DNA of 64,000 bases from a virus. This document shows positions 22,124 through 58,465 of this stretch, in pieces. The notes under the pieces were generated by a model, which searched no databases, was not told the origin of the DNA, and worked only from the letters and a program-made list of their open reading frames with translations. A program made the position numbers and the translations under genes. Each line of letters begins with the position of its first letter. Position 1 is the first letter of the stretch. The stretch lies in IMG/VR virus record IMGVR_UViG_3300010885_026047, positions 1-64,000 of that record; one strand, 5' to 3'.

Positions 22124-22777
22124 TCATACTGTTTTTACTTCTTTAACTGCTCTTTCCCACTGTACCTGTTGATGTCCTTGTTTCTGCAGTGTTTCGTTTA
22201 TCCACTTCCAGGTATCTTTACAGCGTACTTCGGGCCATATCTGCACTGTTCTCTTGTGAGGGCTTTGTATCTGGTCTAAGTATATCTCAGCCTCCTTCCC
22301 AAAAGTTACCCAGATATCTTCCGGGTGTATCTCGTTGATCTTGTTGACTAGGTAACTTGTCCACTCCTTCCATATATCATAATGGTGCTCCATACCTACA
22401 GAACTAGTCATAGCTGTAGAGACCTGTAGAACTCCTTGTTTACCCCACTTAGTTGGAGCTGTACCTTCTAAACTGTCACGTATCTTCTTCATAGGGGTTA
22501 TATCCTGAAGAAAAGGTAGTATACTGTGCCCGTACTCGTTTGACTTGAGACTGGTCAGTAGTACTACCTTAACGTCAGTTGGTTTACACTGGAAGAACTG
22601 GAACATCGTATCCGAGAGCTTTGGTGTTATCCTACTACCAGTGTTCTTTATCTCCAGTAACTTATCTACTATCTGTTCCATGGATCTACTGCAGACAAAC
22701 TGCCATAACAGGTCATACCATCCACACTCTTTAAGTTCATCTTTTATACCTTCTATGATCTCTTGTTTTGTCTGCAT
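22124..22777 (-). CDS. Uracil-DNA glycosylase-fold protein lacking catalytic residues
   Basis: The 217-residue sequence follows the order of family 1 uracil-DNA glycosylase: DVKVVLL at 68-74 (core beta strand), QGVLQVST at 114-121, WKEWT plus a helix at 136-150, DIWVTFGKEAE at 154-164, and a final WINETLQKQG helix. The catalytic GQDPYH is replaced by TSLKSN (75-80), the Asn of the LLNT motif by Ser, and the HPSPLS loop by WPEVR. It should therefore not excise uracil by the usual chemistry. Possible roles (inference): a uracil-DNA-binding shield against host Ung, or a polymerase accessory factor as poxvirus D4 is. A second UDG-like protein, also altered, lies at 35691-36425. Confidence 0.6.
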   Translation of the reverse strand: MQTKQEIIEGIKDELKECGWYDLLWQFVCSRSMEQIVDKLLEIKNTGSRITPKLSDTMFQFFQCKPTDVKVVLLTSLKSNEYGHSILPFLQDITPMKKIRDSLEGTAPTKWGKQGVLQVSTAMTSSVGMEHHYDIWKEWTSYLVNKINEIHPEDIWVTFGKEAEIYLDQIQSPHKRTVQIWPEVRCKDTWKWINETLQKQGHQQVQWERAVKEVKTV

Positions 22778-25665: not shown

Positions 25666-26715
25666 TTACTTTTCTATACTGTTTATATCTGGCCTTATAG
25701 CTTGTAGTACTTTTGTCTCCAGTTCTAACGCAAACTCTTCGTTATCTTTTAGGAACTGAACCATAGCATCAAACCCGTTAGCTAACTTTGTTTCTCCGTT
25801 GTTGTAGTAACTACCTGTCTTCTGTAGTAGTTTGTGCTCTTCAGCCAGGTCTACTATCTCGTTCTGTCTCTGTATACCTTTACCAAACTCTACATAGTAC
25901 GCAGCTTCTTTGTGGGGTATAGATACCTTAGACTTGGTTATCTTAGCCTTTACGTCCAAACCATACACACCATCACTATCCTTATCCAGAGACTTGGTTA
26001 TCTCTATCTTCAGAGCTGTGTAGTACTTCATAGCTTCTCCGGCACACTCTATAAACGGGTTACCATATCCACCTATGTTTACCCTGTACTGGTTCAGAAA
26101 CACCAAACCACAGTTTGTTGGTATCAGTTTAGCGTTTATAGTTCTGAGAGACTTGCTCATAAGTCTACCAACTCCTGCTATACCTGCTGATCTTACTCCT
26201 GCCTGAAGTTCTGACATCGGACAAAGTTCCGCGATACTGTCTAACACGATGATCCCAAAACTCCGGGTATCTAACATGTCACACAGTATCTCCAACCACT
26301 CTTCCCCAGAGATCGCCTGTATCTCACTTTCCTTTTTCTTCTTCAGCAACATCTCTACGTTTACTATGTAGAGCTTACTGAGATCTACGCCTATATTTTC
26401 TGCGTAGTTCAGGTCCAAGGTGCCCTCTACATCGAGAAACGCACACATGTTTCCTTTCTTCTGTTCCTCCTTGATGATGTGTAGAGAGAGCGTTGTCTTG
26501 GAACTGCTTTCTTTGCCCAGTATATGGGTTATCTTGCCATCTTTTGGAACACCTTGGATACCTGTAGCGATATCTAAAGTCAAACTTCCTGTAGAAGTGC
26601 TTTCTTTTACCCGTTCTATAGTAGACGAACTAGCCTTTACTATCGAGTTCTTTCCATACTTTTCCTCTAGTGCTGCTAACTTGTCTGCAGATACGTTATC
26701 TTTTATCTTTGCCAT
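25666..26715 (-). CDS. recA: RecA/UvsX-like recombinase
   Basis: A 349-residue strand-exchange ATPase. Walker A is GKESSSKTT (67-75; the usual GPESSGKTT is altered but Lys-Thr-Thr is kept), Walker B IIVLDS (155-160), and an NQYRVNIGG...GGxAxKYY-like L2 region follows. It should pair and exchange homologous DNA strands during phage replication and repair. The start overlaps the C-terminal codons of an HNH homing endonuclease. A 27-codon frame upstream of that endonuclease (27368-27451) may be the displaced original N-terminus, so the present N-terminus (MAKIKDNV) may be a replacement. Confidence 0.9.
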   Translation of the reverse strand: MAKIKDNVSADKLAALEEKYGKNSIVKASSSTIERVKESTSTGSLTLDIATGIQGVPKDGKITHILGKESSSKTTLSLHIIKEEQKKGNMCAFLDVEGTLDLNYAENIGVDLSKLYIVNVEMLLKKKKESEIQAISGEEWLEILCDMLDTRSFGIIVLDSIAELCPMSELQAGVRSAGIAGVGRLMSKSLRTINAKLIPTNCGLVFLNQYRVNIGGYGNPFIECAGEAMKYYTALKIEITKSLDKDSDGVYGLDVKAKITKSKVSIPHKEAAYYVEFGKGIQRQNEIVDLAEEHKLLQKTGSYYNNGETKLANGFDAMVQFLKDNEEFALELETKVLQAIRPDINSIEK

Positions 26716-27278
26716 GTTATATTGTTTAGTATTTGTGATATGTTAGATATTGATGAGTTATATCTTTTTGCCAGACACTCCAAGTTGCAAGTTTTCTTGT
26801 TGTAATCTCTCCTTATCTCATCCACTTCTACTTGCTTTAACTTAGAAAAGTTAGACTTTTCTCCTTTTCTAACAACCCCATCTCGAAGACCTGTTATAGT
26901 CGCATGTTGATTATTTTCTAAAACTGTACACCACTCTAAGTTTTCTACTCTATTATCTGTCTTTATCCCGTTTATGTGGTTTACACACGGTTTGTTCTTC
27001 GGGTTTAAGATAAATGCTATAGCGACAAGTCTATGTAGAGTAAACCATTTGCCTTTTTGATATCTATATAAACCTATATGAAGATATCCATACTTATCTA
27101 ATTTTGGTTTGAGAGCTTGTCCTTTCAAAAGACAAGGTCTAGTTGTAGCCCTTATCAACCTGGTACAACTACGTATATTACCAAGACTACTTATCTCGTA
27201 GCTATCTTCAAAACCTTTTACAGGTTTCCAAACCTCTTCTTCGCTATAGTCGAAACTGTTTATCTCTAACTCTTTCAT
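26703..27278 (-). CDS. NUMOD4-HNH homing endonuclease
   Basis: 191 residues. The N-terminal NUMOD4-like segment (VWKPVKGFEDSYEISSLGNI) is followed by an HNH core: His82 in TLHRLVAIAF, Asn100-His101 (VNHING), and Asn109/Asn113 in NRVENLEWC; the C-terminus looks like a helix-turn-helix (CLAKRYNSSISNISQIL). Such enzymes cut a DNA target to spread their own gene. AAT/ATT-rich codon use, unlike its neighbours, shows recent acquisition. It is inserted in front of recA, overlapping its start by 13 bases. A crossed inverted-repeat (pseudoknot) leader ends 10 bases before its ATG. Confidence 0.9.
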   Translation of the reverse strand: MKELEINSFDYSEEEVWKPVKGFEDSYEISSLGNIRSCTRLIRATTRPCLLKGQALKPKLDKYGYLHIGLYRYQKGKWFTLHRLVAIAFILNPKNKPCVNHINGIKTDNRVENLEWCTVLENNQHATITGLRDGVVRKGEKSNFSKLKQVEVDEIRRDYNKKTCNLECLAKRYNSSISNISQILNNITWQR

Positions 27279-27288
27279 ACAATGAGCA

Positions 27289-27363
27289 AGCCCTATATAG
27301 GTTCAAGGAGTGCCATCCTATCCCCCATATAGGGCTATCAGTATCATCAATGCAGTGGCACCT
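27289..27363 (-). ncRNA. Pseudoknot leader of HNH homing cassette (element 3)
   Basis: Read on the minus strand: arm A1 (27363-27356, AGGTGCCA), arm B1 (27337-27325, TAGCCCTATATGG), arm A2 (27315-27306, TGGCACTCCT) and arm B2 (27301-27289, CCTATATAGGGCT). A1 pairs with A2 (8 pairs, 2-base bulge) and B1 with B2 (about 12 pairs, one bulge). The crossed order makes a pseudoknot. B2 ends 10 bases before the endonuclease ATG. The same arrangement precedes both GIY-YIG genes. Confidence 0.6.
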
Positions 27364-27367
27364 GCTA

Positions 27368-27451
27368 TCATACAGCTAAGGTACGATAAGTCTCTGAAAC
27401 TTCCAAGCTTTTGTCTTTCTTTTCTTCATCCTTCTTTGTACCTTTTGCCAT
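27368..27451 (-). pseudogene. Stranded N-terminal fragment, possibly of recA (27 aa)
   Basis: Frame starting MAKGTKKDEEKK and ending TYRTLAV-stop. Like the present RecA it begins MAK, is Lys/Asp/Glu-rich, and ends in an E-x-x-Y segment comparable to LEEKY at RecA 16-20. It stops at the edge of the homing cassette. I infer the original recA 5' end cut off by the insertion; it could instead be an independent small gene. Confidence 0.45.
27376..27406 (-). promoter_or_regulatory. Promoter-like TTG-N20-TACCTTAG before HNH cassette
   Basis: On the minus strand TTG (27406-27404), exactly 20 bases, then TACCTTAG (27383-27376), one base from the TAnnTTTG consensus. The ten bases GTACCTTAGC are identical to those before the GIY-YIG/UDG cassette at 37380-37389. 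It lies inside the 27-codon frame. Confidence 0.5.
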
Positions 27452-27464
27452 ATGTCTTGTGTGT

Positions 27465-27815
27465 TTACTTGTTTGTTACTGCGTTTCTAAGTTTCTCCAG
27501 AGCTTCTGTGTACTCCGGGTAAGTGGTTATCTTACTCTGTAGAGCCATCAGACAGCTACTATGGTCCCATCCCCACTCTACTTCCATCTGCATGTAGGTG
27601 TACTTCATATCTCTAGCTACCTGGAACATTGCTGTTCTGGGTATCAGGTACTTGTGTCTGCGGCTACTCTCCAGTGGGTCTACAGTGAACAGTACACAGG
27701 CTTTTTCGTGTATCTCTTTCATAGGTACTATAAACATCTCCTGTACTACAACCTCTCTACCAGTTAGCTCTTTGTAAGCTTGTCGAAACTGCTCTATAAG
27801 TTCTGCTAGAGTCAT
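27465..27815 (-). CDS. DnaA domain IV-like DNA-binding protein, 116 aa
   Basis: Residues 52-95 (RRHKYLIPRTAMFQVARDM, then EWGWDHSSCLMALQSKI) resemble the C-terminal helix-turn-helix of DnaA, including the DHS(T/S) signature that reads the DnaA box. There is no AAA+ domain. It could bind an origin or promoter with DnaA-box-like sites, or act as a transcription regulator. Overlaps the upstream gene by 4 bases (ATGA). Confidence 0.6.
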   Translation of the reverse strand: MTLAELIEQFRQAYKELTGREVVVQEMFIVPMKEIHEKACVLFTVDPLESSRRHKYLIPRTAMFQVARDMKYTYMQMEVEWGWDHSSCLMALQSKITTYPEYTEALEKLRNAVTNK

Positions 27816-28120
27816 AGCTGTTCTTTTTGAAGCTCTTCGTAGTCCTTTTCCTGTTGTTCCCTCTCCAGTCCTATAGCTTCTACAACATCTTGTGGTAGGT
27901 CTTCAGAGAGGTGTGAAGTTTTCAGTTTTATCAGATCCCCACAGTCACTACACAAGATAGCATCGTGAAAACCTGTCTCTATTCCCCATACCTCTCCTCT
28001 ACAGTACCACCTACCTTGGTGTACATGTTCGTGCTTACACTCTTTCCTTATAGCTTTTATCTGCTCTTGTGCTACCTTTATAACTCTCTGTAGAGCTTCT
28101 ACTTCTTCTTTAGTTGTCAT
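27812..28120 (-). CDS. Zinc-binding small protein, 102 aa
   Basis: Contains CKHEHVH and a later CSDCG, suggesting a Cys/His metal site, between helical segments rich in Glu and Gln. No specific family recognised. Confidence 0.65.
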   Translation of the reverse strand: MTTKEEVEALQRVIKVAQEQIKAIRKECKHEHVHQGRWYCRGEVWGIETGFHDAILCSDCGDLIKLKTSHLSEDLPQDVVEAIGLEREQQEKDYEELQKEQL

Positions 28121-28122
28121 AA

Positions 28123-28197
28123 CTACTTACCTTTTAGTTTCTTTATCCTGTTCTTGACTATCTGTATACAGTTATCTACACCTGTGTTTGCTCCCAT
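28123..28197 (-). CDS. Tiny basic protein, 24 aa (tentative)
   Basis: A 24-codon frame (MGANTGVDNCIQIVK start) fills the gap between two well-supported genes and ends with TAG two bases before the next start. Short enough to be chance, but spacing and codon use fit the operon. Confidence 0.4.
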   Translation of the reverse strand: MGANTGVDNCIQIVKNRIKKLKGK

Positions 28198-28203
28198 ATC
28201 CTT

Positions 28204-28611
28204 CTATTGGTTTGTTGTGTTCATGGGTTTGTATATCAGCAACTGTAGGAACCTGTCTGCTCCTTTGTTAGCTACTTCATGAATATCTACTATACCATCT
28301 TTTTTATCTCTTTCCATATACTCATCATACATACTCATAGCTATGTTAGCTTTCCAACTTTCATAATACCCTGAGTCTGTTCTGAGAGCTGTACAAACTA
28401 TCTCTACTGCCTGTGCTAGTTTTGTTTGGCCTCCAGTTACTATAGCGTATGCATCATGGAGATCGTGCCCTACATGAGCTTTTCCATCTGTTGGTTTCTC
28501 TTCATTTCGGAACCAGTTGTCATGGTGTTCATATGTTACCCAACCTGCATCTTGCAGTGTCTTTACCATATCTGGTATCTTGCTACCAGCTTTTCTCATT
28601 TCTTGTTCCAT
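28204..28611 (-). CDS. Hypothetical protein, 135 aa
   Basis: Mixed helical protein with an N-terminal amphipathic helix (MRKAGSKIPDMVKTLQDAGW) and His-rich middle (HVGHDLHDAY). No family recognised. Confidence 0.7.
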   Translation of the reverse strand: MEQEMRKAGSKIPDMVKTLQDAGWVTYEHHDNWFRNEEKPTDGKAHVGHDLHDAYAIVTGGQTKLAQAVEIVCTALRTDSGYYESWKANIAMSMYDEYMERDKKDGIVDIHEVANKGADRFLQLLIYKPMNTTNQ

Positions 28612-28614
28612 ATC

Positions 28615-28962
28615 TTACATGTTTGTTGTGTTCATCTCATCACCGTTTACTGTTACCTTGTCCATCAGTTGTTTTTGGAACTTCTTATAAGCCTTTATAC
28701 TTTTCCTGTCAGCAGCCTTTTGCGTCTTTCCATATCCCCATATCTGTATCCGGATAGGTCTTTCGTGCTTCACTTCTGGCTTTCTGTAGAACAAGTCACC
28801 GAACACACTTTGTAGCAGCTTTATAGAGAACTCTCCTTGCTGTACAGGTGTTCCTTGTAACCTACTATACAGACCTCCTGCATAGACAGGTCTCTTCTTA
28901 CATCTACCTGTTCTTCCTCTTTCTTTGTATAGTTGTTTCATACCTACTCTGTTTTGTCCCAT
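28615..28962 (-). CDS. Basic hypothetical protein, 115 aa
   Basis: Highly basic (KERGRTGRCKKRP near the N-terminus), likely to contact nucleic acid. The start at 28962 overlaps the RepL-like gene's end by 19 bases; a second ATG seven codons later is possible. Confidence 0.65.
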   Translation of the reverse strand: MGQNRVGMKQLYKERGRTGRCKKRPVYAGGLYSRLQGTPVQQGEFSIKLLQSVFGDLFYRKPEVKHERPIRIQIWGYGKTQKAADRKSIKAYKKFQKQLMDKVTVNGDEMNTTNM

Positions 28963-29504
28963 GTTGTTACAACCTTTATCTTATCTGGGTACTTGTTTAC
29001 ACGGTTACCTGGGAAGAACCTGTGTGGGTTTATCCAGAACCAACCTTTCTCATGTGTCGGTTGTATAAACTGATATCTGTGTAGCTCCTTTACAGCAGCG
29101 TTAAACGTTGTCTGAGACTTTACGTTGTTTCTCTTCATGTAGTACTGCCTGTTGATATACACATAGTCCTTGTTCTTCTTCATAGTGTACAACAGGTGCA
29201 GAAACAGCCTCTGTGCCCTATCTGAGAGAGCTGCTACGTTTGCACCACTACTCTCGTGTATATACAGCTCAACCTTCTTCGTTTGCTCCAGATAGAACGC
29301 CTTATTTACCAGTATCCCATCTACGTTTTCAGCATACTCTATATCGCTTATAAGCTTTGTCACCGGGATGGTTAACTCATACGTGTACGGGTTATCTTTG
29401 AACTGTGTTTCGTCTATCGGAGGTATCTTTCTCATATCATCGTTGTTTTCCAACTCGTTGACAAAGATACAGCTTGTTTCCGTTTTTCCATCTAACTGTT
29501 TCAT
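28944..29504 (-). CDS. RepL-type replication initiator-like protein, paralogue 1
   Basis: 186 residues. The winged-helix block LSDRAQRLFLHLLY...NKDYVYINRQYYMKRNNVKS, followed by a FWINP.RFFPGNRVNKYP segment, is shared with the protein at 54652-55152, so the two are paralogues. The pattern matches RepL-like plasmid initiators; crAss-like phages are known to encode RepL homologues. The N-terminal 80 residues differ from the paralogue. Either origin binding or transcription control is possible. Confidence 0.65.
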   Translation of the reverse strand: MKQLDGKTETSCIFVNELENNDDMRKIPPIDETQFKDNPYTYELTIPVTKLISDIEYAENVDGILVNKAFYLEQTKKVELYIHESSGANVAALSDRAQRLFLHLLYTMKKNKDYVYINRQYYMKRNNVKSQTTFNAAVKELHRYQFIQPTHEKGWFWINPHRFFPGNRVNKYPDKIKVVTTWDKTE

Positions 29505-29552
29505 ATATCTTTTTTCATACTTCCACCTATTTGATAGCTTCTTTTTCTTCTA

Positions 29553-29672
29553 AAACCTGCACTGGGCTTGTGTTTCAGACGTTTTTCAGAGCAACATAAC
29601 AACCTCCCCTAAGTCCACATAGTAGTTATGTTATCTCTCAAAAGCTCTGTATATAGCCATCAGTGCAGGTTT
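29553..29672. repeat. Three nested inverted repeats forming a long structured intergenic element
   Basis: Plus-strand arms: AAACCTGCACTG (29553-29564) with CAGTGCAGGTTT (29661-29672), 12 perfect pairs; CAGAGC (29587-29592) with GCTCTG (29644-29649); AACATAAC (29593-29600) with GTTATGTT (29625-29632). The two inner stems stack on one side. Transcribed from either strand it would fold into a 120-base branched hairpin. It fills the gap between the exonuclease region and the RepL-like gene. Candidate ncRNA, attenuator or protein-binding site. Confidence 0.55.
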
Positions 29673-29727
29673 CATCGACTTTTCCTCTTTCCATCTACCT
29701 GTAAGAACTGCCCTACTCTCATAGTAA

Positions 29728-29820
29728 CTACTCTGCAGGAAGTGTGTTCTGGGTAGCAAGTTGTAGTTCTTGCACCTCTCGTAGCTTCCTGCAGGTAGTT
29801 GTGTTTCTACAGGGTTCCAT
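29728..29820 (-). CDS. Small hypothetical protein, 30 aa (tentative)
   Basis: Starts MEPCRNTTTCRKL, overlapping the last codons of the exonuclease, and ends with TAG. A Cys-spaced basic N-terminus and helical C-terminus. The overlap style is typical of this block, but the length is near the limit of recognition. Confidence 0.4.
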   Translation of the reverse strand: MEPCRNTTTCRKLREVQELQLATQNTLPAE

Positions 29821-30901
29821 AACGTAAACCAAGATCTACATAGCCGTTTGTCTTGTCTAGCTGTTCTGAGTTTCCCCAGTCCCCAGTAGACAAGCACCAA
29901 GCTATATCTGCCTGAAGTTCTCGTAAGCCCTTACTCCTTATCCCCCTGTACATAAACCCCCTACAAGCCCTATTTACATCGTCATCTGTCAACAGTAACT
30001 TTATCGAGGCCTGAAACCCTGTAGTATCGCAAAACACAAACACCATCGGTTCTATCTTGTAGTCAGACAGGTCGTTTTCTTTAGCCCACATCCTTACTGC
30101 ATCTCTGTACATAGCTGCCTGTAGATAGTACCCGTACTTCAGATAAGCAAACTGTGGCTTATCAACATCAAAAGTCGTTTTCCAGTCGTAGGTCTTTATA
30201 ACCTTATCTGTGTGAGAAACTACTAACTTATCTACCATAGACTTGTAACCAACTCCTTCCAGTTCAAACAGTATCGGCAGTTCGTTAAACACTTCTACCT
30301 CATCACTTGTCTCCAGGTTAGCTATACCTGATGTGTACGGGTGAGCTTTTATCTTTTCCACTATCCTTTCTGCAGACTCTATAGTTGCTGTAGAGACAAC
30401 AGTTCTACCGATACTCTCCATACACTCCTTGTAGTACATCTCCGGTTCTTTGTCCTGGAACTTCTCTAAAGCCCAAGACATCTCTTTCTTCTTAAACGCT
30501 ATCTCGTTACCTTCATAGTCAAACTTTATACTATTAAACGCATCAGAGAACAACACAGAGAACTTATCCTGTTGTACACCATTTTCATCTATAGTCTTCA
30601 ATGCCCTGGCCACCAATGCATCTGTGAAATCCCCCATCTGTCCACTTGGTCTCTGTGTACCTGCTATGACAAACTTCTCATCGAATGACTCTGGAAGTGA
30701 CAGTAGTAGATGACATAGATCCCCGAGAACTAACGCAATACTCTTTTTCTCTGTAGGTAATTCACCTAACACCATTTGTTTGTAGAAGGATTTGCGATCT
30801 GTGTCAAAAAGTTTTATCGAACTATAGCTCAATCTACTTCGTATACCTCTATATTCTTTTTCACTTATACGTGAAGTTTCAACTTTCTTTGTTATATTCA
30901 T
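29807..30901 (-). CDS. RecE/RecB-like PD-(D/E)XK exonuclease
   Basis: 364 residues from the ATG at 30901, chosen because the domain starts there and the longer version only extends into the GIY-YIG gene. Seen: LSYSSIKLFD at the N-terminus, GDLCHLLL (60-67), then SMVDKLVV with Asp224 and TYDWKTT with Asp239/Lys241, and a YGYYLQAAMYRDA helix: the layout of RecE-like/DUF3799 and RecB-type nucleases. It would resect DNA ends to give 3' single strands for the annealing ATPase and RecA. Its first codons overlap the end of the GIY-YIG endonuclease. Confidence 0.8.
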   Translation of the reverse strand: MNITKKVETSRISEKEYRGIRSRLSYSSIKLFDTDRKSFYKQMVLGELPTEKKSIALVLGDLCHLLLSLPESFDEKFVIAGTQRPSGQMGDFTDALVARALKTIDENGVQQDKFSVLFSDAFNSIKFDYEGNEIAFKKKEMSWALEKFQDKEPEMYYKECMESIGRTVVSTATIESAERIVEKIKAHPYTSGIANLETSDEVEVFNELPILFELEGVGYKSMVDKLVVSHTDKVIKTYDWKTTFDVDKPQFAYLKYGYYLQAAMYRDAVRMWAKENDLSDYKIEPMVFVFCDTTGFQASIKLLLTDDDVNRACRGFMYRGIRSKGLRELQADIAWCLSTGDWGNSEQLDKTNGYVDLGLRYGTL

Positions 30902-31916
30902 ACTTTTTCCATTTGTAACCGTGAGCACTTTCTTTTTTACCTTTTACTGCTAACCATATGACATCATATGTAGCATCTATAGATCTGGCTGCTTGTTTAC
31001 AGTCTCGAAATCTATCTATGAGTTTTCCGTCTCTGTACATTTCTATAGGTTTATATAGCATTTTCAATTTTTGTATTTCTTCATCTGTCATTTCTTTGGT
31101 GGAGAAATAGAGCCCATTCGTAAGCCATTTCTTATCTATCAATGCTGCTATACCACCCTTGTATATTTGTAGAGTAATAGTTGCATCTGTATATGAATTG
31201 AATTTCTGATAATTGGAGTTGATTAAATTATATACATGTACTTCTTTTCTATGCACGTCTCTTTCATATCTGTACACAGCAGTTGTATCATACTCTAACT
31301 TATCTACGAACATATACCCTCCTGCACTTTTTGTTCTACCTGTAACTATCGATGATATTTGACAATGAGATAGATTCAATTCTCTAACTGCATCTGACTG
31401 AACTTCAAATCCCTTCACAAATTTTCCATTCATATCTAACATTACAACAGCTTTTCCAGAGTCTTTTCTCCTTCTTTTCACATGAGCATTTCTAACCTCT
31501 GTAGACATTTTCATCCCAGTTTTGGTTTTTCTCATTTTCTCTATATGCTCTGATGTTTTTGGTTTTCCGCTATGAGCTATTGATAATTTTCTCTTTGTCT
31601 CCTCTGATAGTCTAGGTGTACCATATGGATGTGTTGGCCTGATGTTATACCCATATCTTCTATCATGAGATTTTGTCAATAAGCACCAATAATGCTCCAT
31701 ACTGTATAAGTACTCTTCAGCACATTCTTCCAGAGTTTCGAATACAAAGTTATCAGCTCCATATTTGTTCCATGCATGTTGTAATTTCTCATTATCGTGG
31801 TCTCCTCGTATCAGGTCATTTCTATGTTCCTTGAGTCTTTTCTCAATGTCTACAGCTAGTCCTATATATAGCTTATTGTCTAGCTGATTCGTAATGGTAT
31901 ATATTCCAGAGTTCAT
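30879..31916 (-). CDS. GIY-YIG homing endonuclease with NUMOD repeats
   Basis: 345 residues. The N-terminal GIYTITNQLDNKLYIG (4-19) is the GIY-YIG catalytic start, with further core segments HRNDLIRG and YGADNFVFETLEEC. Then come a NUMOD3-like TEETKRKLSxxHxGKxxS run and two IENR1-like modules (GFEVQSDAVRELNLSHCQIS...GRTKSAGGYMFV and ...GKKESAHGYKWKK). Codon use (AAT, ATT, TTT) differs from neighbours. It is placed in front of the exonuclease gene and ends 22 bases inside it. A pseudoknot leader ends 12 bases before its ATG. Confidence 0.9.
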   Translation of the reverse strand: MNSGIYTITNQLDNKLYIGLAVDIEKRLKEHRNDLIRGDHDNEKLQHAWNKYGADNFVFETLEECAEEYLYSMEHYWCLLTKSHDRRYGYNIRPTHPYGTPRLSEETKRKLSIAHSGKPKTSEHIEKMRKTKTGMKMSTEVRNAHVKRRRKDSGKAVVMLDMNGKFVKGFEVQSDAVRELNLSHCQISSIVTGRTKSAGGYMFVDKLEYDTTAVYRYERDVHRKEVHVYNLINSNYQKFNSYTDATITLQIYKGGIAALIDKKWLTNGLYFSTKEMTDEEIQKLKMLYKPIEMYRDGKLIDRFRDCKQAARSIDATYDVIWLAVKGKKESAHGYKWKKYEYNKES

Positions 31917-31928
31917 AACAAACAGATA

Positions 31929-32034
31929 CCACCGTACACAGGTGCTATTATATACCAGTATGGGCTGGATATATCCTGTGCAGGTGGCATTTGTAGTGTG
32001 AGTAATTTCTTCATGGACTGGTATATAATAGCAC
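31929..32034 (-). ncRNA. Pseudoknot leader of GIY-YIG cassette (element 1)
   Basis: On the minus strand: A1 32034-32017 (GTGCTATTATATACCAGT) pairs perfectly over 18 bases with A2 31959-31942; B1 31987-31975 (CCACCTGCACAGG) pairs with B2 31942-31929 (CCTGTGTACGGTGG; 13 pairs, one bulge). Order A1-B1-A2-B2 gives a pseudoknot. A short GGAU-AU-AUCC hairpin follows B1. B2 ends 12 bases before the endonuclease ATG. Shares topology and the TTACT..ACTACA spacer with element 2. Confidence 0.65.
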
Positions 32035-32036
32035 TA

Positions 32037-32044
32037 CGAATGTA
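32037..32044 (-). promoter_or_regulatory. Weak promoter-like box TACATTCG
   Basis: Same position relative to the pseudoknot as the TACCTTAG boxes at the other two cassettes. The -33 position reads TAG rather than TTG, so it is the weakest of the set. Confidence 0.35.
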
Positions 32045-32047
32045 CGA

Positions 32048-32536
32048 CTATTCTTTCATGTAACCTATAGTTTGATCGATTAATTGTTGAGTCATTCCTT
32101 CTGATTTGTAGTACCACTTATCTAGTAGAGAGATGCACTTCTTCTGTACATATTCTAGTGTCCAGTTTTGTTTGTACCCTTCTCGGAACCCATCTATCCC
32201 CTTTGCTAGACTCAACATACCGAATGCCATCATACTAACTCCATGTTCATCTTCACTCATTTCACTATTGGCTTCTAGTTGTTCTGATATATCGTATCCA
32301 TTCTTGTATAACCACACTAGCAGTTTTGTATTATCGAAATGGAGAACGGCATTATCTTGTCCATTGTGATATCGTATACCTATAATGGATCTACCGGAGA
32401 GCATTAATTGTTGCCTACCTTGTTCATCTATGACCATATCATGTGATATACCAGTATAGTAGTAATTTTTTCCTGGATACACATACTCTAGTGCCTCTTC
32501 GCATTCTTCTTTTGTTATTTCTCGTATATTCTTCAT
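32048..32536 (-). CDS. Hypothetical protein, 162 aa
   Basis: Mixed alpha/beta protein with an acidic middle (EANSEMSEDEHG) and no recognised domain. It ends with TAG immediately before the homing-cassette promoter box, so the cassette boundary lies at its 3' end. Confidence 0.75.
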   Translation of the reverse strand: MKNIREITKEECEEALEYVYPGKNYYYTGISHDMVIDEQGRQQLMLSGRSIIGIRYHNGQDNAVLHFDNTKLLVWLYKNGYDISEQLEANSEMSEDEHGVSMMAFGMLSLAKGIDGFREGYKQNWTLEYVQKKCISLLDKWYYKSEGMTQQLIDQTIGYMKE

Positions 32537-32538
32537 AT

Positions 32539-32631
32539 CTATATGGTTTTCATATTACTATCACGTATTGCCCTATATGCCTGTTCATTCATTGGTCCTC
32601 CCTGGGATGCAATTTTCTTACCTATGTTCAT
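32539..32631 (-). CDS. Small hypothetical protein, 30 aa
   Basis: MNIGKKIASQGG start. Its ATG overlaps the stop of the RuvC-like gene by four bases (ATGA), good evidence for a translated, coupled frame. No family recognised. Confidence 0.55.
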   Translation of the reverse strand: MNIGKKIASQGGPMNEQAYRAIRDSNMKTI

Positions 32632-33089
32632 TGTATGTTCTCTTTGATTTTTCCATAATGCATTATCAGTACAGCATCTGCAGTATCCAGTGTCAGTTTG
32701 CTGCCGGGATATAGTTGTTGTGCTCGTGCTTTCAGGTGGTTCTTCCACTCACTCTTCGTTCTGGTACCTCTGGTGCCCATTCCTAGCTCTTTCTGCCACT
32801 TCTGGGGTGTAACTGCTTCTGTAGGTATTTTCAGTGCCAGTAGTGCCATTTCTAGATGTCCATAACCTTTTCCGAAGTTGAACATCGGACTACCTCCCAT
32901 ACCCGGCATACCTCCTACTTTCTCCAGGTAGCATTTGCTGTTGTATTCCCATCCTCGTAGTAGTTCCAGTACATCCTGTGCAGTTTCTGGCATCTTGTGT
33001 ATGATTATCTCTCCATAGTCAGTCCATACTACTATAGCACCTGCTCCTCCCGGATCTATTCCTATGATATTCTTTCTAATACTTTCCAT
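32628..33089 (-). CDS. ruvC: RuvC-like Holliday junction resolvase
   Basis: 153 residues with the RNase H-fold resolvase pattern: GIDPGGAGAI with Asp12, YLEKVGG with Glu56, and LDTADAVLIMHY with Asp135 and Asp138, giving the four acidic metal ligands. It should cut four-way junctions before packaging or during recombination. Overlaps the upstream 53-codon gene by 14 bases and is coupled to the downstream small gene. Confidence 0.85.
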   Translation of the reverse strand: MESIRKNIIGIDPGGAGAIVVWTDYGEIIIHKMPETAQDVLELLRGWEYNSKCYLEKVGGMPGMGGSPMFNFGKGYGHLEMALLALKIPTEAVTPQKWQKELGMGTRGTRTKSEWKNHLKARAQQLYPGSKLTLDTADAVLIMHYGKIKENIQ

Positions 33090-33237
33090 CTTTTCCTATT
33101 TTGTGTATTGCGTCTATATAGCCTTGTAATGTGCTCGCATCTTCTACTGGTAATTCTATATCTGATGCAGCTACTATACTCATCCATTTATAGTGCATGT
33201 TTATTGCTATTTGCCTGAGTATTTCAATATCTTCCAT
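33076..33237 (-). CDS. Small hypothetical protein, 53 aa
   Basis: Helical frame starting MEDIEILRQIAINMHYKW, with normal codon use, filling the gap upstream of ruvC and overlapping its start by 14 bases. No family recognised. Confidence 0.65.
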   Translation of the reverse strand: MEDIEILRQIAINMHYKWMSIVAASDIELPVEDASTLQGYIDAIHKIGKDGKY

Positions 33238-33248
33238 CTATCTGTAGT

Positions 33249-33527
33249 TTATTCTTCTCTGTACATATGTGACTGTATATCTATACCTCCATCTGGGAAG
33301 TACTTTGATCCTATTGTATGGAGATTGTTCAGTTTATTGTCTATCAGCTTCTGTGCTTTGTCTGTCCATATGAGGGACCACTCTTCCGGATCATTTTCTC
33401 CTGCTGATCTGGTCATACCTTCTTCCTTTTCCAGTCTCTCACAGAACTCTGTCAGCATCTCACTGAGAGCCTCTGACATTTCATCTTCATCTGCTATTTC
33501 TTCGTTTTCCAGTTCTTCTACTATCAT
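33249..33527 (-). CDS. Acidic hypothetical protein, 92 aa
   Basis: N-terminal 45 residues are rich in Glu/Asp (VEELENEEIADEDEMSE), possibly a DNA mimic or protein-interaction segment. Coupled by ATGA to the upstream gene. Confidence 0.7.
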   Translation of the reverse strand: MIVEELENEEIADEDEMSEALSEMLTEFCERLEKEEGMTRSAGENDPEEWSLIWTDKAQKLIDNKLNNLHTIGSKYFPDGGIDIQSHMYREE

Positions 33528-33763
33528 ATCTGTTCTTTTTCTGCTATGGAATCTTCGAGATCTACCTGTTTCACCTTCACTACTTTCTTTGGAAGTTGTT
33601 CTTTGTACCTGACTGAGAGTAACCCTACTATCTGTAGAGCTACTTCAGTTAAGTCTGTTGCCCATCTCCCTTCTTCGTACTCTTTCAAAACATCGTAGAT
33701 AACCCTGTTGATACCTTCTTTCTTTAACAGAGCTATCTGTTTACGTAACTGGTTTGGTGTCAT
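33524..33763 (-). CDS. Helical hypothetical protein, 79 aa
   Basis: Short amphipathic helices and a basic core (KEQLPKKVVKVK). Overlaps both neighbours by four bases (ATGA), a translationally coupled chain. Confidence 0.7.
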   Translation of the reverse strand: MTPNQLRKQIALLKKEGINRVIYDVLKEYEEGRWATDLTEVALQIVGLLSVRYKEQLPKKVVKVKQVDLEDSIAEKEQI

Positions 33764-34074
33764 ATCGCTCTTTCTAGGTCTTTTATCACTCTATCTATCA
33801 TCTCTTCAGCAACTTGTGCATTTGCACCCTCTACGTCTGAGAGATCTATCTGTTTCAGGTCATAGATAGAGTCCCTAACCTCTCGTTTCAGATCTTCTAT
33901 CTCTTCTTCTAGTGTTTCTACTTTATCTACAGCACCTTTTACATCATCAGCCTCACTCTGGAGATCTTCCACTGCTTCTTTGAACCTATCCCAGTCACCA
34001 AACTTGTACTTGTAGTTTTCTGGTATGTATATCTCAAACTGCCTGAAGTACTCTTGTATCGTATCTCTGTTCAT
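33760..34074 (-). CDS. Coiled-coil protein, 104 aa
   Basis: The start at 34074 makes a four-base ATGA overlap with the upstream stop. Residues about 30-75 form a clear heptad-like, Glu-rich coiled coil (VETLEEEIEDLKREV). Probably an oligomeric accessory factor; function unknown. Confidence 0.7.
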   Translation of the reverse strand: MNRDTIQEYFRQFEIYIPENYKYKFGDWDRFKEAVEDLQSEADDVKGAVDKVETLEEEIEDLKREVRDSIYDLKQIDLSDVEGANAQVAEEMIDRVIKDLERAI

Positions 34075-34733
34075 ATAGTTGCCATTTCTGCGTGTGAATA
34101 TTTTGGTAGTTTCTCGTACTCTTCCTGGGATTTCTGGCACATATAGTCTACCATTCTCTTTGCCTCTTCTATGACTCCACTCTTGTCTGGATCACCATAG
34201 AACCCCGAACATGCCTCACCAGTATCATTACCATCTGCAGTCTCTATATCATACCCATACACGTTACCAATCAGCCAGTCATCATAGGTTTCTACTTCAC
34301 CCTCCATGTATAGTGCTGCTTTTTCTGGTGCCCATCCCTCCTTCTCTATTGTTTTCTTCGTGCAGTATATCCACCCTACCTGACCACTATCCCATGGACA
34401 TCCGAACTTTCCTGTACTCATCGTGATACCACTGTGATCATATAGGTATAGGGGCAGTATCACAGTTCCTTGTTCCTCTATCATCCGTATACAATCTTCT
34501 CTGCTGAACTTGTAGTCATCTACATCAGTATCTATATTGGCTACCTGTTCTAGCCACTCATCTGGATCACACTTTGGCTGTTCATCTCCGAGAGTGTATT
34601 TCCTGTGCCAGCATGTCATAATCGGTTCCTCACCTTTGCACTTCCATGACCTCGGATTTTGCGCAGTATCATCTTGTACTATCTCGATGCTGTATCCCTT
34701 GTATTCTATTGTATCTGCTATATATCTGCTCAT
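34071..34733 (-). CDS. Conserved phage protein, 220 aa, function unknown
   Basis: Contains LPLYLYDHSGITMS, CPWDSGQVGWIY and YGYDIE...CSGFYGD blocks that I recognise as a widespread phage/plasmid protein family without an assigned biochemical role. N-terminal part beta-rich. Coupled to the downstream coiled-coil gene. Confidence 0.75.
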   Translation of the reverse strand: MSRYIADTIEYKGYSIEIVQDDTAQNPRSWKCKGEEPIMTCWHRKYTLGDEQPKCDPDEWLEQVANIDTDVDDYKFSREDCIRMIEEQGTVILPLYLYDHSGITMSTGKFGCPWDSGQVGWIYCTKKTIEKEGWAPEKAALYMEGEVETYDDWLIGNVYGYDIETADGNDTGEACSGFYGDPDKSGVIEEAKRMVDYMCQKSQEEYEKLPKYSHAEMATI

Positions 34734-34734
34734 A

Positions 34735-35082
34735 CTACTGTTGTTTATCTAGTTGCTCATTGATATATCGTATCATATCCTCGGCTCTGTCGAATGACCC
34801 TACCCCTGTACCGTCTTCTGCATATCCCATATCGAACACCTTCCCATTGTACTTGGCCAATATTTGCTGATTTGCGTGAGTATCTTCTATCTGATAGTCT
34901 AACCACCACCAGTCACTGATATTATCCATCCAGTTTCTTGCATATGGAACTCGGGTATTCTGTATCAACTGATACTTGCCCATTCTATAGAACGATCTCT
35001 GATATTTCGTACCGGCTACTGACCATTCTATCTGGTCATATGCCTCTATCTGATCTAGTTCTTCTATTGTATACTGGCTCAT
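34735..35082 (-). CDS. Hypothetical protein, 115 aa
   Basis: Trp/Tyr-rich, beta-type composition with an acidic tail; no domain recognised. The start overlaps the stop of a 22-codon gene (ATGA). Confidence 0.7.
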   Translation of the reverse strand: MSQYTIEELDQIEAYDQIEWSVAGTKYQRSFYRMGKYQLIQNTRVPYARNWMDNISDWWWLDYQIEDTHANQQILAKYNGKVFDMGYAEDGTGVGSFDRAEDMIRYINEQLDKQQ

Positions 35083-35147
35083 ACCTTCTCTTTTTCCAGT
35101 AACTCTATAATCTCTGTATATGTCCTCACACGTTCCCTAGTTCTCAT
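35079..35147 (-). CDS. Tiny protein, 22 aa
   Basis: MRTRERVRTYTEIIELL start. Ends in a four-base ATGA overlap with the next gene, supporting translation despite its size. Possibly a leader that sets downstream expression by coupling. Confidence 0.45.
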   Translation of the reverse strand: MRTRERVRTYTEIIELLEKEKV

Positions 35148-35150
35148 TCT

Positions 35151-35501
35151 CTACAGGTTGTCCCTCCATTCTTGGAGAGTTGTCAATAATACCGGCTGTG
35201 GTGCATCATCATCTCCCTGGTAGACCATCATCTCTCCATCTTCATAGAGAACTATCTTGGCTACAGTATACTCGTTTTCAGGCCAGTGTATCTGGTCAAA
35301 CTTCCTGTCTCCATCTCGAAACTGCTCTATATCATCTTCTACGTCTGCTATGATCTCCAGTTGCGCTAACCTTTCTGTCTCAAAAACCTGTGGGAGAGTT
35401 TCTTCTCCTTCACCTGTTCTCCAGACAAGTTCTGTACCACTTATCGTGTTTGTAAGTACGCAGTAGCCTTGTAGCTTTATACCTTTACTTTCTGTGCTCA
35501 T
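35151..35501 (-). CDS. Acidic hypothetical protein, 116 aa
   Basis: The start at 35501 is chosen for its ATGA overlap with the upstream stop. Rich in Asp/Glu (DVEDDIEQFRDGD, YQGDDDAP). No recognised family. Confidence 0.7.
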   Translation of the reverse strand: MSTESKGIKLQGYCVLTNTISGTELVWRTGEGEETLPQVFETERLAQLEIIADVEDDIEQFRDGDRKFDQIHWPENEYTVAKIVLYEDGEMMVYQGDDDAPQPVLLTTLQEWRDNL

Positions 35502-35674
35502 TTTCTTTTCAGTTTGTTGTAAACAATGTCGATACACAACAGAGACTTCTTAAACCCTTCCATATCTGTTATACCATGTAGAGCTGCCCAGTTCCTAAGT
35601 TCTCTACGTGTATCCATATTTCTTAACTCTGCTATGTTTAACCCTACACGTATCGTTATCTCTTGCTTTGTCAT
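35498..35674 (-). CDS. Small basic protein, 58 aa
   Basis: The start at 35674 (MTKQEITIRVG) lies 16 bases after the UDG-like stop; an earlier ATG at 35707 would overlap it. Basic C-terminus (YNKLKRK). No family recognised. Confidence 0.65.
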   Translation of the reverse strand: MTKQEITIRVGLNIAELRNMDTRRELRNWAALHGITDMEGFKKSLLCIDIVYNKLKRK

Positions 35675-35690
35675 ATATAAGTTTTTAACA

Positions 35691-37265
35691 TCAGAACGGA
35701 AGATCATCGAACCACATAATAGTTTGGTTGTTGTTATCCTTTAGTATTTTATCAGCTTTCTTAAAAGCCCCCTCTGAGTCCCAGTTAGTGTTGTTATAAC
35801 TTGCAGAAGCCGGGTGTTTTAGTGGTATACAGTAGTGTTGCATTGGGTTTATATAACTTATAGACCTTTGAGCTTCTTCTCCGAGAAAGAAAATGACTAC
35901 ACCTGACATATACTTGTTAACTATCTCTTCCCAAAAGTACTGGTTAAAGTCCTTCCATAAAAGTTGGTTTGATAGAGGTTTCCCTTCTTCTACAGTTAGA
36001 GCTACGTTATAGCATAAAACCCCCTGACTAGCTAACCACTTCATGTCACCATAAGAGTTGTTTTGTTTGTGCATACTACTCCCATATACTCTCTGTAGTT
36101 CATCATACCATTGCTGTAAACTAGGCTGTACACCTTTAGTGTTTTTAGTGTAACTACAAGACATACATAAGCCATCAGCGATAGGTTTTCCGTTCTCAAA
36201 AGTATGATATGGACACATTCCCGCTAGTATAACACGTACTTTTTCAGGAGGCGTTTCTTTGAAAGCTCTGAAAACATCAGAACTTGCCGGAGCTATGTTT
36301 ATCTTTCTTGCAGATCTATTTTTTAGAACTTTAAATATGTTATCAAAACTATCTGACTCTATAAATGGTTTAAATAGCCTAACCCACTCTTTTCCCATCT
36401 GACTTTCTACAGCTTCTATCTTCATTTGTTGTTTAGTTTTATACTTATATACATACCCTTTGTTACTCTTTGGTTTATACTTTCCTCTACACCATAAAGC
36501 CATAGTTATAGGATGAACTTTTGCATCTATAGCTGCTTCATTTTTACTATAAAAGCTACATATAAGGTTTCCATCAAGATCATACTTTTCTATCTCTAAC
36601 CTGCCTCCATTTTCTGATGTTCTCCTAGCATGTTCTGCATCATGCTTCATACCTCTTCTTTTAGCAGCACCCCTTTCTACTTGTTTTTTTGTTAGGGGTT
36701 TTCTCTTTTTCAGACCTTCTGATATTGCTATACTATGCTCTACTGATCTCTTTTTTCCTTTTAGTCTTTCACTGTTAGCCTTTTTCCACTCTTCAGTATG
36801 TTTTCTACCCTTTGTAAAACCTACACCGTTTCTACTTTCTAACACTTTTTTCCAAGACTCAGACTGACGTTTTCTTATCTCTGGTGATCTCTTCTTTCCA
36901 GTGTTAAAAACTCTTAACTTTTCTTTGGTTTCCTCTGATACAGAAGGAGCATCTCTGTGTGGATGAGTGGGTTCTATGTTATAACCACGCTCTCTGTTAT
37001 GTACATCAAGTAGTGTAGCCCAGTAATGTTCTTCGCTGAACAGGTGCTCTATATCACACTCAACTAGAAGTTCAAAAACAAAATTATCTATACCATACCT
37101 ATTAACTGCGTACTGTAGATGATCGTTTCCATGTACTTTTCTTACTAACTGAGATTTATGGTGCCTTAAACGACTTTTTACATAAGTTGCTTTACCTACA
37201 TATATTTTGTTATCTACAAGGTTAGTTATAGTGTATATCCCGCTTGTATCTTTTCTAGTGTGCAT
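35691..37265 (-). CDS. GIY-YIG homing endonuclease fused in frame to a UDG-like protein
   Basis: 524 codons. Residues 1-280: GIY-YIG core (GIYTITNLVDNKIYVG), repeated NUMOD3-like segments and an IENR1-like GKYKPKSNKGYVYKYK. Residues 281-524: uracil-DNA glycosylase fold, with an internal ATG at 36425 preceded by the usual AACAACAA leader, so a separate 244-aa product is likely. In that numbering the family 1 motif GQDPYH reads GMCPYH (69-74), so catalytic Asp is Cys71; Asn140 (CYNVALTV) and His204 (HPASAS) remain. Activity is doubtful. The endonuclease part is AT-rich and foreign-looking. No stop separates the parts, unlike the other two cassettes. Confidence 0.8.
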   Translation of the reverse strand: MHTRKDTSGIYTITNLVDNKIYVGKATYVKSRLRHHKSQLVRKVHGNDHLQYAVNRYGIDNFVFELLVECDIEHLFSEEHYWATLLDVHNRERGYNIEPTHPHRDAPSVSEETKEKLRVFNTGKKRSPEIRKRQSESWKKVLESRNGVGFTKGRKHTEEWKKANSERLKGKKRSVEHSIAISEGLKKRKPLTKKQVERGAAKRRGMKHDAEHARRTSENGGRLEIEKYDLDGNLICSFYSKNEAAIDAKVHPITMALWCRGKYKPKSNKGYVYKYKTKQQMKIEAVESQMGKEWVRLFKPFIESDSFDNIFKVLKNRSARKINIAPASSDVFRAFKETPPEKVRVILAGMCPYHTFENGKPIADGLCMSCSYTKNTKGVQPSLQQWYDELQRVYGSSMHKQNNSYGDMKWLASQGVLCYNVALTVEEGKPLSNQLLWKDFNQYFWEEIVNKYMSGVVIFFLGEEAQRSISYINPMQHYCIPLKHPASASYNNTNWDSEGAFKKADKILKDNNNQTIMWFDDLPF

Positions 37266-37274
37266 AACAGTAAG

Positions 37275-37377
37275 TCCCCAGCATATAGGTGCAGCTACAT
37301 ACCAGTCGAGAGTGGACGTATCCTATATGTGGGGAGTTTCTGTAGTTAGTAAATGTCATAAAACTGGTAATAGCTGC
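37275..37377 (-). ncRNA. Pseudoknot leader of GIY-YIG/UDG cassette (element 2)
   Basis: Minus strand: A1 37377-37363 (GCAGCTATTACCAGT) pairs with A2 37306-37291 (ACTGGTATGTAGCTGC; 7+7 pairs around a small bulge); B1 37336-37322 (CTCCCCACATATAGG) pairs with B2 37289-37275 (CCTATATGCTGGGGA; about 13 pairs). Crossed order as in elements 1 and 3. A GGA-UACG-UCC mini-hairpin follows B1. B2 ends 9 bases before the ATG. Confidence 0.65.
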
Positions 37378-37381
37378 AGTG

Positions 37382-37412
37382 CTAAGGTACTACTTTTCTG
37401 TCAACTTTCCAA
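37382..37412 (-). promoter_or_regulatory. Promoter-like TTG-N20-TACCTTAG before GIY-YIG/UDG cassette
   Basis: TTG (37412-37410), 20 bases, TACCTTAG (37389-37382). TTGGAAAGT at the start of this unit also occurs at the promoter before the RNase H leader (38850), so these are probably one promoter class. Confidence 0.5.
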
Positions 37413-37461
37413 ACTTTATCCACTTACCGAACTGTTTCTCTATCTGAGGTGTTACTGTCAT
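37390..37461 (-). pseudogene. Stranded N-terminal fragment of the UDG-like gene (23 aa)
   Basis: Frame MTVTPQIEKQFGKW...LTEK-stop, coupled by ATGA to the upstream gene. From its Trp it aligns without gaps to the UDG-like N-terminus (GKW-IKFGKLTEK against GKEWVRLFKPFIE), and stops exactly where the downstream copy continues SDSF. I infer this is the native 5' end, cut off by the homing cassette, which supplies a replacement. Confidence 0.55.
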
Positions 37462-57726: not shown

Positions 57727-58398
57727 TTACGCTACAACAGGTGCTGCTGAAGTAACGGCTGGTGTAAACGCCTTGTTACGTGCAAACCATGCATCAGACA
57801 GCTGCTGTTTGTTGTCATGTGCTACATAGCTGTCCATAGCTTCGGGCTTATAAACACCGTTGTTGTTGGCAAAATGTGCCATAACCCTACGATATATCGG
57901 AGTTGCTACTGCCTCACCCTGGGCATTTGGTTCATACTTCAGCAACTGGATACCGTCTGGTGTCTTCTTCAGGTCACGACCTGGGTTAGTCTTGCTGAAA
58001 GGTATCGTACTTTCATGTACACATACCCGAACACGTTTAACGGGTTCACCTACCTTAGCACCTAACAGTACCAAACGGGTTTCGATATCATCCCCGTCAT
58101 CACCAAACACATTGGTATATACCGGAACAGGTTTCCCGCTGTCCGATAAATCCATAACACCAAGCCGCATAAATGCAACTTCTTTACCATTTGTACCCGG
58201 TTGGATACGTGCACCATTACCCTGTACTGGAGTCCATGCTCCTGAAGGGTCTTCCACAAACTCCGGTAACAGGATTACTGCACCGTCACCATACATAGCC
58301 GTCTTCTCTGCAAGATACCTGCGGATGGCTGAACGGTTAGCCTTTAACTGTGTGTCACTAAGTGACTGTCTTGCTGCAACATTAGCTGCTGTGCTCAT
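57727..58398 (-). CDS. Hypothetical protein, 223 aa, possibly abundant
   Basis: Soluble alpha/beta protein with Ala-rich ends (MSTAANVAARQS and FTPAVTSAAPVVA) and a beta-rich centre (VAFMRLGVMDLS, VPVYTNVFGDDGD). Codons here include more GCC, ACC and GGT than most neighbours, as in highly expressed genes. First sizeable gene after the divergent promoter region, so probably expressed early. No family recognised. Confidence 0.7.
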   Translation of the reverse strand: MSTAANVAARQSLSDTQLKANRSAIRRYLAEKTAMYGDGAVILLPEFVEDPSGAWTPVQGNGARIQPGTNGKEVAFMRLGVMDLSDSGKPVPVYTNVFGDDGDDIETRLVLLGAKVGEPVKRVRVCVHESTIPFSKTNPGRDLKKTPDGIQLLKYEPNAQGEAVATPIYRRVMAHFANNNGVYKPEAMDSYVAHDNKQQLSDAWFARNKAFTPAVTSAAPVVA

Positions 58399-58465
58399 AA
58401 GAATTGTTTTTAGTATAAAAGAAATGCCTACTCTGTTACAGGTTTTCGGCTTACCCTGTTTATCT

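Follow-up and report, generated by a model that had tools for sequence, protein, structure and literature searches.

Structured leaders of homing genes

Hairpins of the T4 type precede the homing genes I-TevI, I-TevII, I-TevIII, segB and Aeh1 mobE (PMC2988022). In these systems a simple hairpin hides the Shine-Dalgarno site, and does so only on read-through transcripts, while the late-promoter transcript is made without the hairpin (PMC2988022). In seg43(25) of Aeromonas phage 25, a very stable hairpin is located directly upstream of the ribosome-binding region of the homing gene and does not hide it (PMC2988022). Here we describe predicted RNA leaders of homing endonuclease genes in IMG/VR virus record IMGVR_UViG_3300010885_026047, of which the first 64,000 nucleotides (nt), called the window, form part of a record of 113,639 bases. 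Three leaders lie in the window, E1 (27279-27365), E2 (31917-32034) and E3 (37266-37378), all on the minus strand, and a fourth, E4, lies outside it. They share with the T4-type hairpins that a structured RNA stands just before the start codon of GIY-YIG or HNH homing genes with a promoter nearby, but their fold, of the kissing or pseudoknot kind, begins after the cassette's own promoter-like box and leaves the start codon open. Since this box stands 5' of the whole fold, transcripts from the own promoter would carry the fold. No Shine-Dalgarno-like sequence was seen between the last stem and the ATG, a distance of 9-12 nt. An initial annotation of this DNA had offered, as one of two readings, an RNA that hides the start site as in I-TevI; a structured leader near the start of a homing gene agrees with that reading, whereas a box 5' of the fold, an open AUG and the lack of a masked Shine-Dalgarno site do not. 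The seg43(25) leader differs in being a single hairpin known from one case, for which no kissing partner or second helix has been described.

Loop-loop pairing of about 7 base pairs (bp) between two hairpins is known from RNAI and RNAII of ColE1, where the kiss joins two RNAs, whereas in the leaders it would form in cis within one mRNA. The DUF805b RNA (Rfam RF02914, Cis-reg) is also a short leader upstream of phage-gene start codons, and its arms by inspection can cross (CAGG-GCC-CCTG-GGC); it differs in its length of 35 nt, in its sequence and in standing farther from the ATG. The kissing leader matches neither DUF805b nor any other family in Rfam 15 and is a new RNA family absent from that release. 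A literature search, with most subscription journals outside its reach, found no such RNA described. One DUF805b RNA was identified in the window at 58425-58459 on the minus strand (49.1 bits), before the open reading frame (ORF) 57727-58398, and another in the alternative insertion slot of phage lillamy9-1.

Fold of the leaders

The initial annotation had placed two inverted repeats in crossed order (A1-B1-A2-B2) before all three genes, and the crossed arms were confirmed there, with B2 ending at a near-constant distance from the ATG (10, 9 and 9 nt in E1, E2 and E3). The stem lengths held in part: stem A, given as 8 bp in E1, has 6-7 bp, the 18 bp of E2 were recovered, and the A stem of E3 measures about 16 bp; stem B has 13, 16 and 14 bp, respectively. 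As read from the sequence, stem A of E1 does not form a plain pseudoknot: two small hairpins, of which the second is seated on stem B, kiss through their loops over 6 bp. The layout is (GCAG)<GTGCCA>(CTGC)...[AGCCCTATATGGG]ggat{AGGA}<TGGCAC>{TCCT}tgaa[CCTATATAGGGCT]. Hairpin C (27352-27365) consists of GCAG (27362-27365), the loop K1, GTGCCA (27356-27361), and CTGC (27352-27355). The 5' arm of stem B, AGCCCTATATGGG, occupies 27324-27336 and its 3' arm, CCTATATAGGGCT, which ends 10 nt from the ATG, 27289-27301; both were obtained from the crossing-arm and kiss analyses. Hairpin D (27306-27319), located atop stem B, is made of AGGA (27316-27319), the loop K2, TGGCAC (27310-27315), and TCCT (27306-27309). 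Hairpins C and D were identified by the kiss scan and by RNAfold.

E2 and E3 are built otherwise. Arm A1 of E2, GTGCTATTATATACCAGT (32017-32034), pairs with A2, ACTGGTATATAATAGCAC (31942-31959), over 18 bp with zero mismatches, and B1, ATGCCACCTGCACAGG (31975-31990), pairs with B2, (C)CTGTGTACGGTGGTAT (31926-31941), over 16 bp with one bulge, the helix ending 9 nt from the ATG. The arms of E3, found by crossing-arm analysis and ORF ranking, are A1, TGCAGCTATTACCAGTT (37362-37378), and A2, GACTGGTATGTAGCTGCA (37290-37307), with one bulge in helix A, and B1, TCCCCACATATAGG (37322-37335), and B2, CCTATATGCTGGGGA (37275-37289), the latter likewise ending 9 nt from the ATG. A TTACT..ACTACA spacer and a GGA-UAYR-UCC mini-hairpin had been assigned to elements 1 and 2; in truth only the two GIY-YIG elements have them, and the mini-hairpin's GG doubles as part of B1. 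Used as a probe, the spacer pattern shared by E2 and E3 matched only the same phage and one chance site within a coding region. An ATG in the E2 spacer (31917-32014, minus strand) opens a small frame, MKKLLTLQMPP..., whose TGA overlaps the nuclease ATG, and open frames likewise cross E3, giving a possible upstream reading frame. Read-through of a stop codon into the leader was considered for these open frames and dropped, as there was no evidence for it.

Each leader in the window follows a -7 promoter-like box with one mismatch to TAnnTTTG. The box of E1, TACCTTAG (27376-27383), has CTTG 20 nt upstream (27404-27407); that of E3, again TACCTTAG (37382-37389), has TTTG 20 nt upstream (37410-37413); and that of E2 is TACATTCG (32037-32044), 2 nt ahead of A1. 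The gap from the box to the first stem is 10 nt in E1, 2 in E2 and 3 in E3. The stretch GTACCTTAGC common to E1 and E3 is part of this box. Only a weak box, TATCATTA, precedes E4.

The crossing arms were scored against dinucleotide shuffles, giving 94 for E2 (shuffled 38.8 +/- 4.3), 74 for E3 (37.3 +/- 3.6) and 52 for E1 (35.8 +/- 6.8), and the three ranked first, second and fifth among the 225 ATG ORFs of the 113.6-kb record. E1 makes a poor simple pseudoknot but a strong pair of kissing hairpins. In a kissing-hairpin scan of the whole record, E1 and E4 were the best two (64.9 and 62.1), the next scoring 46.3, while the maximum in 200 shuffled genomes was 57.3. Over all loci scanned, a score of 56 or more was reached at 14 places and in shuffled sequence at none. 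E4 (L080:14924-15005, about 98.6-98.7 kb of the record) was found by blind ranking, and it is located 11 nt before an ORF that encodes an HNH endonuclease of a family other than that of E1. Together with this gene (L080:14924-15529, 98.6-99.2 kb), E4 comes behind an inverted repeat that belongs to the gene before it and resembles a terminator.

Relatives of the HNH class were fetched via their nuclease proteins. In this class, hairpin C has 4-7 bp and carries in its loop 6-8 nt complementary to the loop of hairpin D, and hairpin D, of 3-5 bp, is stacked on stem B via an internal loop that is often UGAU/UGAU. E1 and E4 have all these parts, and RNAfold of their leaders alone recovered hairpins C, B and D exactly. 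E2 and E3 have a long helix A in place of the kissing hairpins and belong to a second type, found also in L094, L036/L037 and L073-L075, in which one helix of 11-18 bp joins the same two regions. When arms of this type were cross-paired, every arm paired best with its own partner. The GC-rich contig L202 contains two very strong 9-bp kissing structures (275+ and 1497+) and no TAnnTTTG box; one of the two structures precedes an HNH gene. They may represent the same design in a lineage of its own.

Conservation of the pairing

Covariation was assessed in 15 HNH-class sequences, 14 of them distinct. Double-sided changes were found in 20 of the 22 pairs, with 92.1% of cells paired, and the kissing helix taken alone is compensated in six of its seven pairs, so that the claim that base changes are compensated stands for this class. 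The covariation score was 0.636, compared with 0.194 for shuffled and at most 0.123 for slid alignments; the shuffle control flatters the alignment, because it had already been inspected for this structure. The presence of G-U pairs favours pairing in RNA.

A cleaner test than alignment covariation is the pattern scan with TGATAAAGANNNNNNNCTTTTGAT, in which the stem of hairpin D and the internal loop are fixed and the kissing 7-mer is left free. This pattern matched 114 IMG/VR stretches, of which 80 were listed, and the counts that follow rest on 81 matches. The exact complement of the 7-mer was found within 110 nt upstream in 71 of the 81, although many contigs are close relatives, so that the 71 cannot be taken as independent events; in cross-element comparisons, a 7-mer from a different element had its complement there in 1 of 3094 cases. 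Among the 71 matches with a complement, the C stem reaches 3 bp or more in 70, and none lacks a TAnnTTT(G/A) box, which most often lies 5 nt ahead of the first stem; a box of the TAnnTTTG type is absent from all ten matches that have no upstream complement. Six different kissing 7-mers are represented, and the ATG lies 10-12 nt beyond stem B in the majority of matches.

Mobility and distribution of the cassette

The leader was identified in cultured Baltic Flavobacterium phages (mumin6-1, snork6-1, hattifnatt9-1 and others; 34 records), where it occupies a 142-nt gap before a NUMOD4 endonuclease gene. In filifjonk9-1, the same two neighbours that flank the occupied site of mumin6-1 are 10 nt apart, forming an empty site, and a ParB-like gene takes up the slot in lillamy9-1 and morran9-1, preceded in the former by the DUF805b RNA, a known Rfam cis-regulatory family. 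The homologous left flank stops before the promoter, and promoter, RNA and gene are thus present or absent together. This comparison of sites supports a promoter and RNA module that would travel with the nuclease gene.

The earlier claim that the element occurs with unrelated nucleases was borne out, as was the existence of further homologues next to homing endonucleases, both in IMG/VR and in the cultured Flavobacterium phages. Relatives stand before HNH/NUMOD4, HNH/AP2, GIY-YIG/NUMOD3 and T5orf172 genes, and many phages with promoters of the Bacteroidetes type have such a leader. Seventy pattern matches have an ORF on record, its nuclease class being assigned by motif: 35 belong to HNH genes (NUMOD4, AP2), 8 to GIY-YIG, 2 to T5orf172, 2 to other HNH-like genes, 3 tentatively to PD-(D/E)XK, 13 to a gene for 79 amino acids and 7 to others. 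Clear nucleases thus number 47 and tentative ones 3 (about 70%), and Pfam on 25 representatives agrees with the gene classes. Five of the seven other matches lack a gene at the usual spacing and are possible remnants. The link between leader and nuclease is strong but not exclusive. That the RNA, and not the enzyme, defines the element, as had been suggested, is mostly upheld; against it, 20 of the 70 are followed by a non-nuclease gene or by no adjacent gene, and the majority of related nuclease genes carry no leader. In several related phages (L380, L398, L061 and others), the 79-amino-acid gene behind the kissing leader is conserved and heads an ordinary small-gene operon. In L184 (685+), a kissing-type structure with a TATATTTG box lies 23 nt before a DNA methyltransferase gene.

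Searched by descriptor, the kissing leader was found in 24 of 93 distinct HNH-relative loci from IMG/VR, in one doubtful case among 80 from GTDB genomes and in none of 102 GIY-YIG loci; the GIY-YIG genes with the kissing form were obtained from the pattern scan only. The GTDB locus L288 fits the descriptor but lies 33 nt from an ATG and has the look of a chance match. One or two copies are present per whole phage record. A covariance model of the flavobacterial subclass (R1) blindly picked out a second HNH gene whose leader makes a new 7-bp kiss (L347/L348), and also a weak match upstream of a helicase gene (L350). Run on 400 Flavobacteriaceae genomes, it gave three weak matches, none with a kissing partner and for that reason treated as false, under strict filters that may have dropped weak true copies. 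Searched against the window phage record, R1 did not match E1 or E4 at E <= 0.1; these two share with the subclass the fold, the position and some bases of the loops (GGAU/UGAA, also seen in L195), but not its sequence. The element was not seen at the 15 homing genes inspected in human-gut crAss-like phages and two Flavobacterium phages.

Proposed function

The fold, the compensatory changes, the promoter position, the AUG spacing and the travel with the nuclease were computed, and the elements may on these grounds be regarded as 5' untranslated leaders of self-contained homing cassettes, each comprising its own promoter, an RNA and a nuclease gene. We propose, with a probability of about one half, that the fold, which ends near the start codon, limits translation start of the nuclease. 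The cassette's sigma-A-type promoter would start the transcript at the first hairpin, and nearly the whole leader would fold as one unit. In E1, E4 and the HNH class the hairpin at the 5' end would kiss the loop of the hairpin beside the start codon, whereas in E2 and E3 the long crossing helix would join those two ends instead. Either fold would hold a potentially harmful nuclease low until opened.

The TAnnTTTG box of F. psychrophilum spans -12 to -5 (PMC9723704). From this span and the usual gap of 4-5 nt we infer a transcription start that puts the first stem at about +1/+2, so that the fold would take up nearly all of the leader, beginning at the 5' end and stopping about 10 nt short of the AUG. 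Translation start would be limited because the last stem lies about 9-12 nt before the AUG and Shine-Dalgarno pairing is not used by Bacteroidetes ribosomes. In Prevotella, a start-region structure of -5.2 kcal/mol cut expression to one fifth, and the least efficient construct was the one with a hairpin 14 nt upstream, while a hairpin at -20 was not inhibitory (PMC3155529); in F. johnsoniae, the region from -20 to +20 is as a rule little paired (PMC6847099). The B-D hairpins average -11.4 kcal/mol. The fold ends at about -10 to -12, within the sensitive zone, which makes a translation brake the best-supported reading; kissing in vivo and the direction and timing of the effect we likewise infer. 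Hosts that ignore Shine-Dalgarno sequences need another way to restrain homing genes, and the kissing-loop or pseudoknot leader looks like one. It is suggested further that homing genes can trade promoter and leader as a module, a point relevant to the survival of free-standing homing genes in phage genomes. A more far-reaching and tentative version is that the promoter and a two-state kissing-loop switch form a mobile regulatory module, handed on among unrelated homing nucleases and some other phage genes, that would sense a phage or host signal and release translation or transcription at a set time of infection. The cultured Flavobacterium phages (mumin, snork, hattifnatt and others), with natural compensatory variants and occupied and empty sites, make the leader testable.

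Several points weigh against the translation brake. The AUG and the last 9-10 bases lie outside the fold, so that the block would be partial and the leader could even be a docking or stabilising device. The leader is missing from most related nuclease genes. E1 and E4, missed by R1, would be tied to its subclass by descriptor and shared loop bases; the long-helix class comprises five distinct examples, and its common origin with the kissing class is putative. The host of the window phage is hinted at solely by its apparent use of a Bacteroidetes-type promoter box. Finally, the run of T after stem B in the flavobacterial subclass resembles a terminator, which would be superfluous if only translation were controlled.

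This last point belongs to the strongest rival, transcription attenuation, a possible reading though well behind the brake in likelihood, in which hairpin B-D and the T-run would form an intrinsic terminator between the cassette promoter and the gene and kissing would decide between stop and go. All 70 elements of the flavobacterial subclass have at least 5 T within 8 nt after stem B (mean 6.19, compared with 2.76 upstream of the contigs' other start codons), and the hairpin amounts to -9 to -14 kcal/mol. A terminator leaves the fixed distance to the start codon unexplained, however, and the T-run is missing from E1-E4 and most of the long-helix class, which nonetheless keep both the fold and the ATG spacing. 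As E1-E4 are without the T-run, translation is preferred for the window.

Somewhat less probable again is a protector of the 5' end or an enhancer of translation, the 5'-terminal hairpin tied to the start-proximal one shielding the mRNA or docking ribosomes that do without Shine-Dalgarno pairing. The first stem at about the transcript start and an open start codon at near-fixed distance would suit such a device, but it would be unusual for a homing nuclease to be made in large amounts, and structure that near the start codon lowered expression in Prevotella (PMC3155529). Protection of the 5' end could also operate alongside the brake.

A DNA-level operator or endonuclease binding site is very improbable. 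I-TevI binds an operator over its late promoter in autorepression (PMC2988022), and the elements do overlap the start region beside a promoter. Compensated stems that include G-U pairs, and a kissing 7-mer present in two loops, would be useless in duplex DNA, and one and the same fold is found with unrelated nucleases and with genes that encode no nuclease. Group I introns often harbour homing genes, and IscB-type nucleases have an upstream RNA, but a self-cleaving ribozyme, intron remnant or guide or mobility RNA, the second reading of the initial annotation, is unsupported and the least probable of all, as no Rfam ribozyme or intron matches, no intron core is present, the loops pair mutually and offer no guide, and no 3' RNA follows the gene, which in E1 overlaps recA. 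The annotation's own remark that a group I core is lacking agrees with the Rfam search, which gave no group I or other Rfam RNA at E1-E3. Readings as hepatitis delta virus (HDV)-like, hammerhead, pistol or group I RNA were dropped on topology and lack of Rfam matches; for an HDV-like P3 hairpin between P2 and the 3' strand of P1, the L2 loop has just 8-9 nt in the HNH class, and the A helix of E2 and E3, of 16-18 bp, leaves no room after it.

Gene content of the record

Among the products encoded by the record are DNA polymerase, primase, helicase, RecA and an endolysin, and very large ORFs are present as well. When the window was compared with the phage collection by megablast, there was no match and no near relative. 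A search with RecA as bait found no relative either, and there is thus no empty site for the window phage itself. The gene behind E1 (26703-27278, minus strand) encodes an HNH homing endonuclease with NUMOD4 (Pfam NUMOD4 2e-15, HNH_3 5e-8; PHROG 59), and its 3' end overlaps the start of recA. The gene behind E2 (30879-31916, minus strand) encodes a GIY-YIG homing endonuclease with an I-HmuI-like NUMOD and NUMOD1 (Pfam GIY-YIG 1.4e-8; PHROG 314). Behind E3 (35691-37265, minus strand) lies a gene for a GIY-YIG endonuclease fused to a uracil-DNA-glycosylase-like (UDG-like) domain (Pfam GIY-YIG 6.2e-7, UDG 1.9e-7). This fusion is unusual; its UDG-like part belongs to phrog_12143, of which a separate protein is encoded at 22124-22777.

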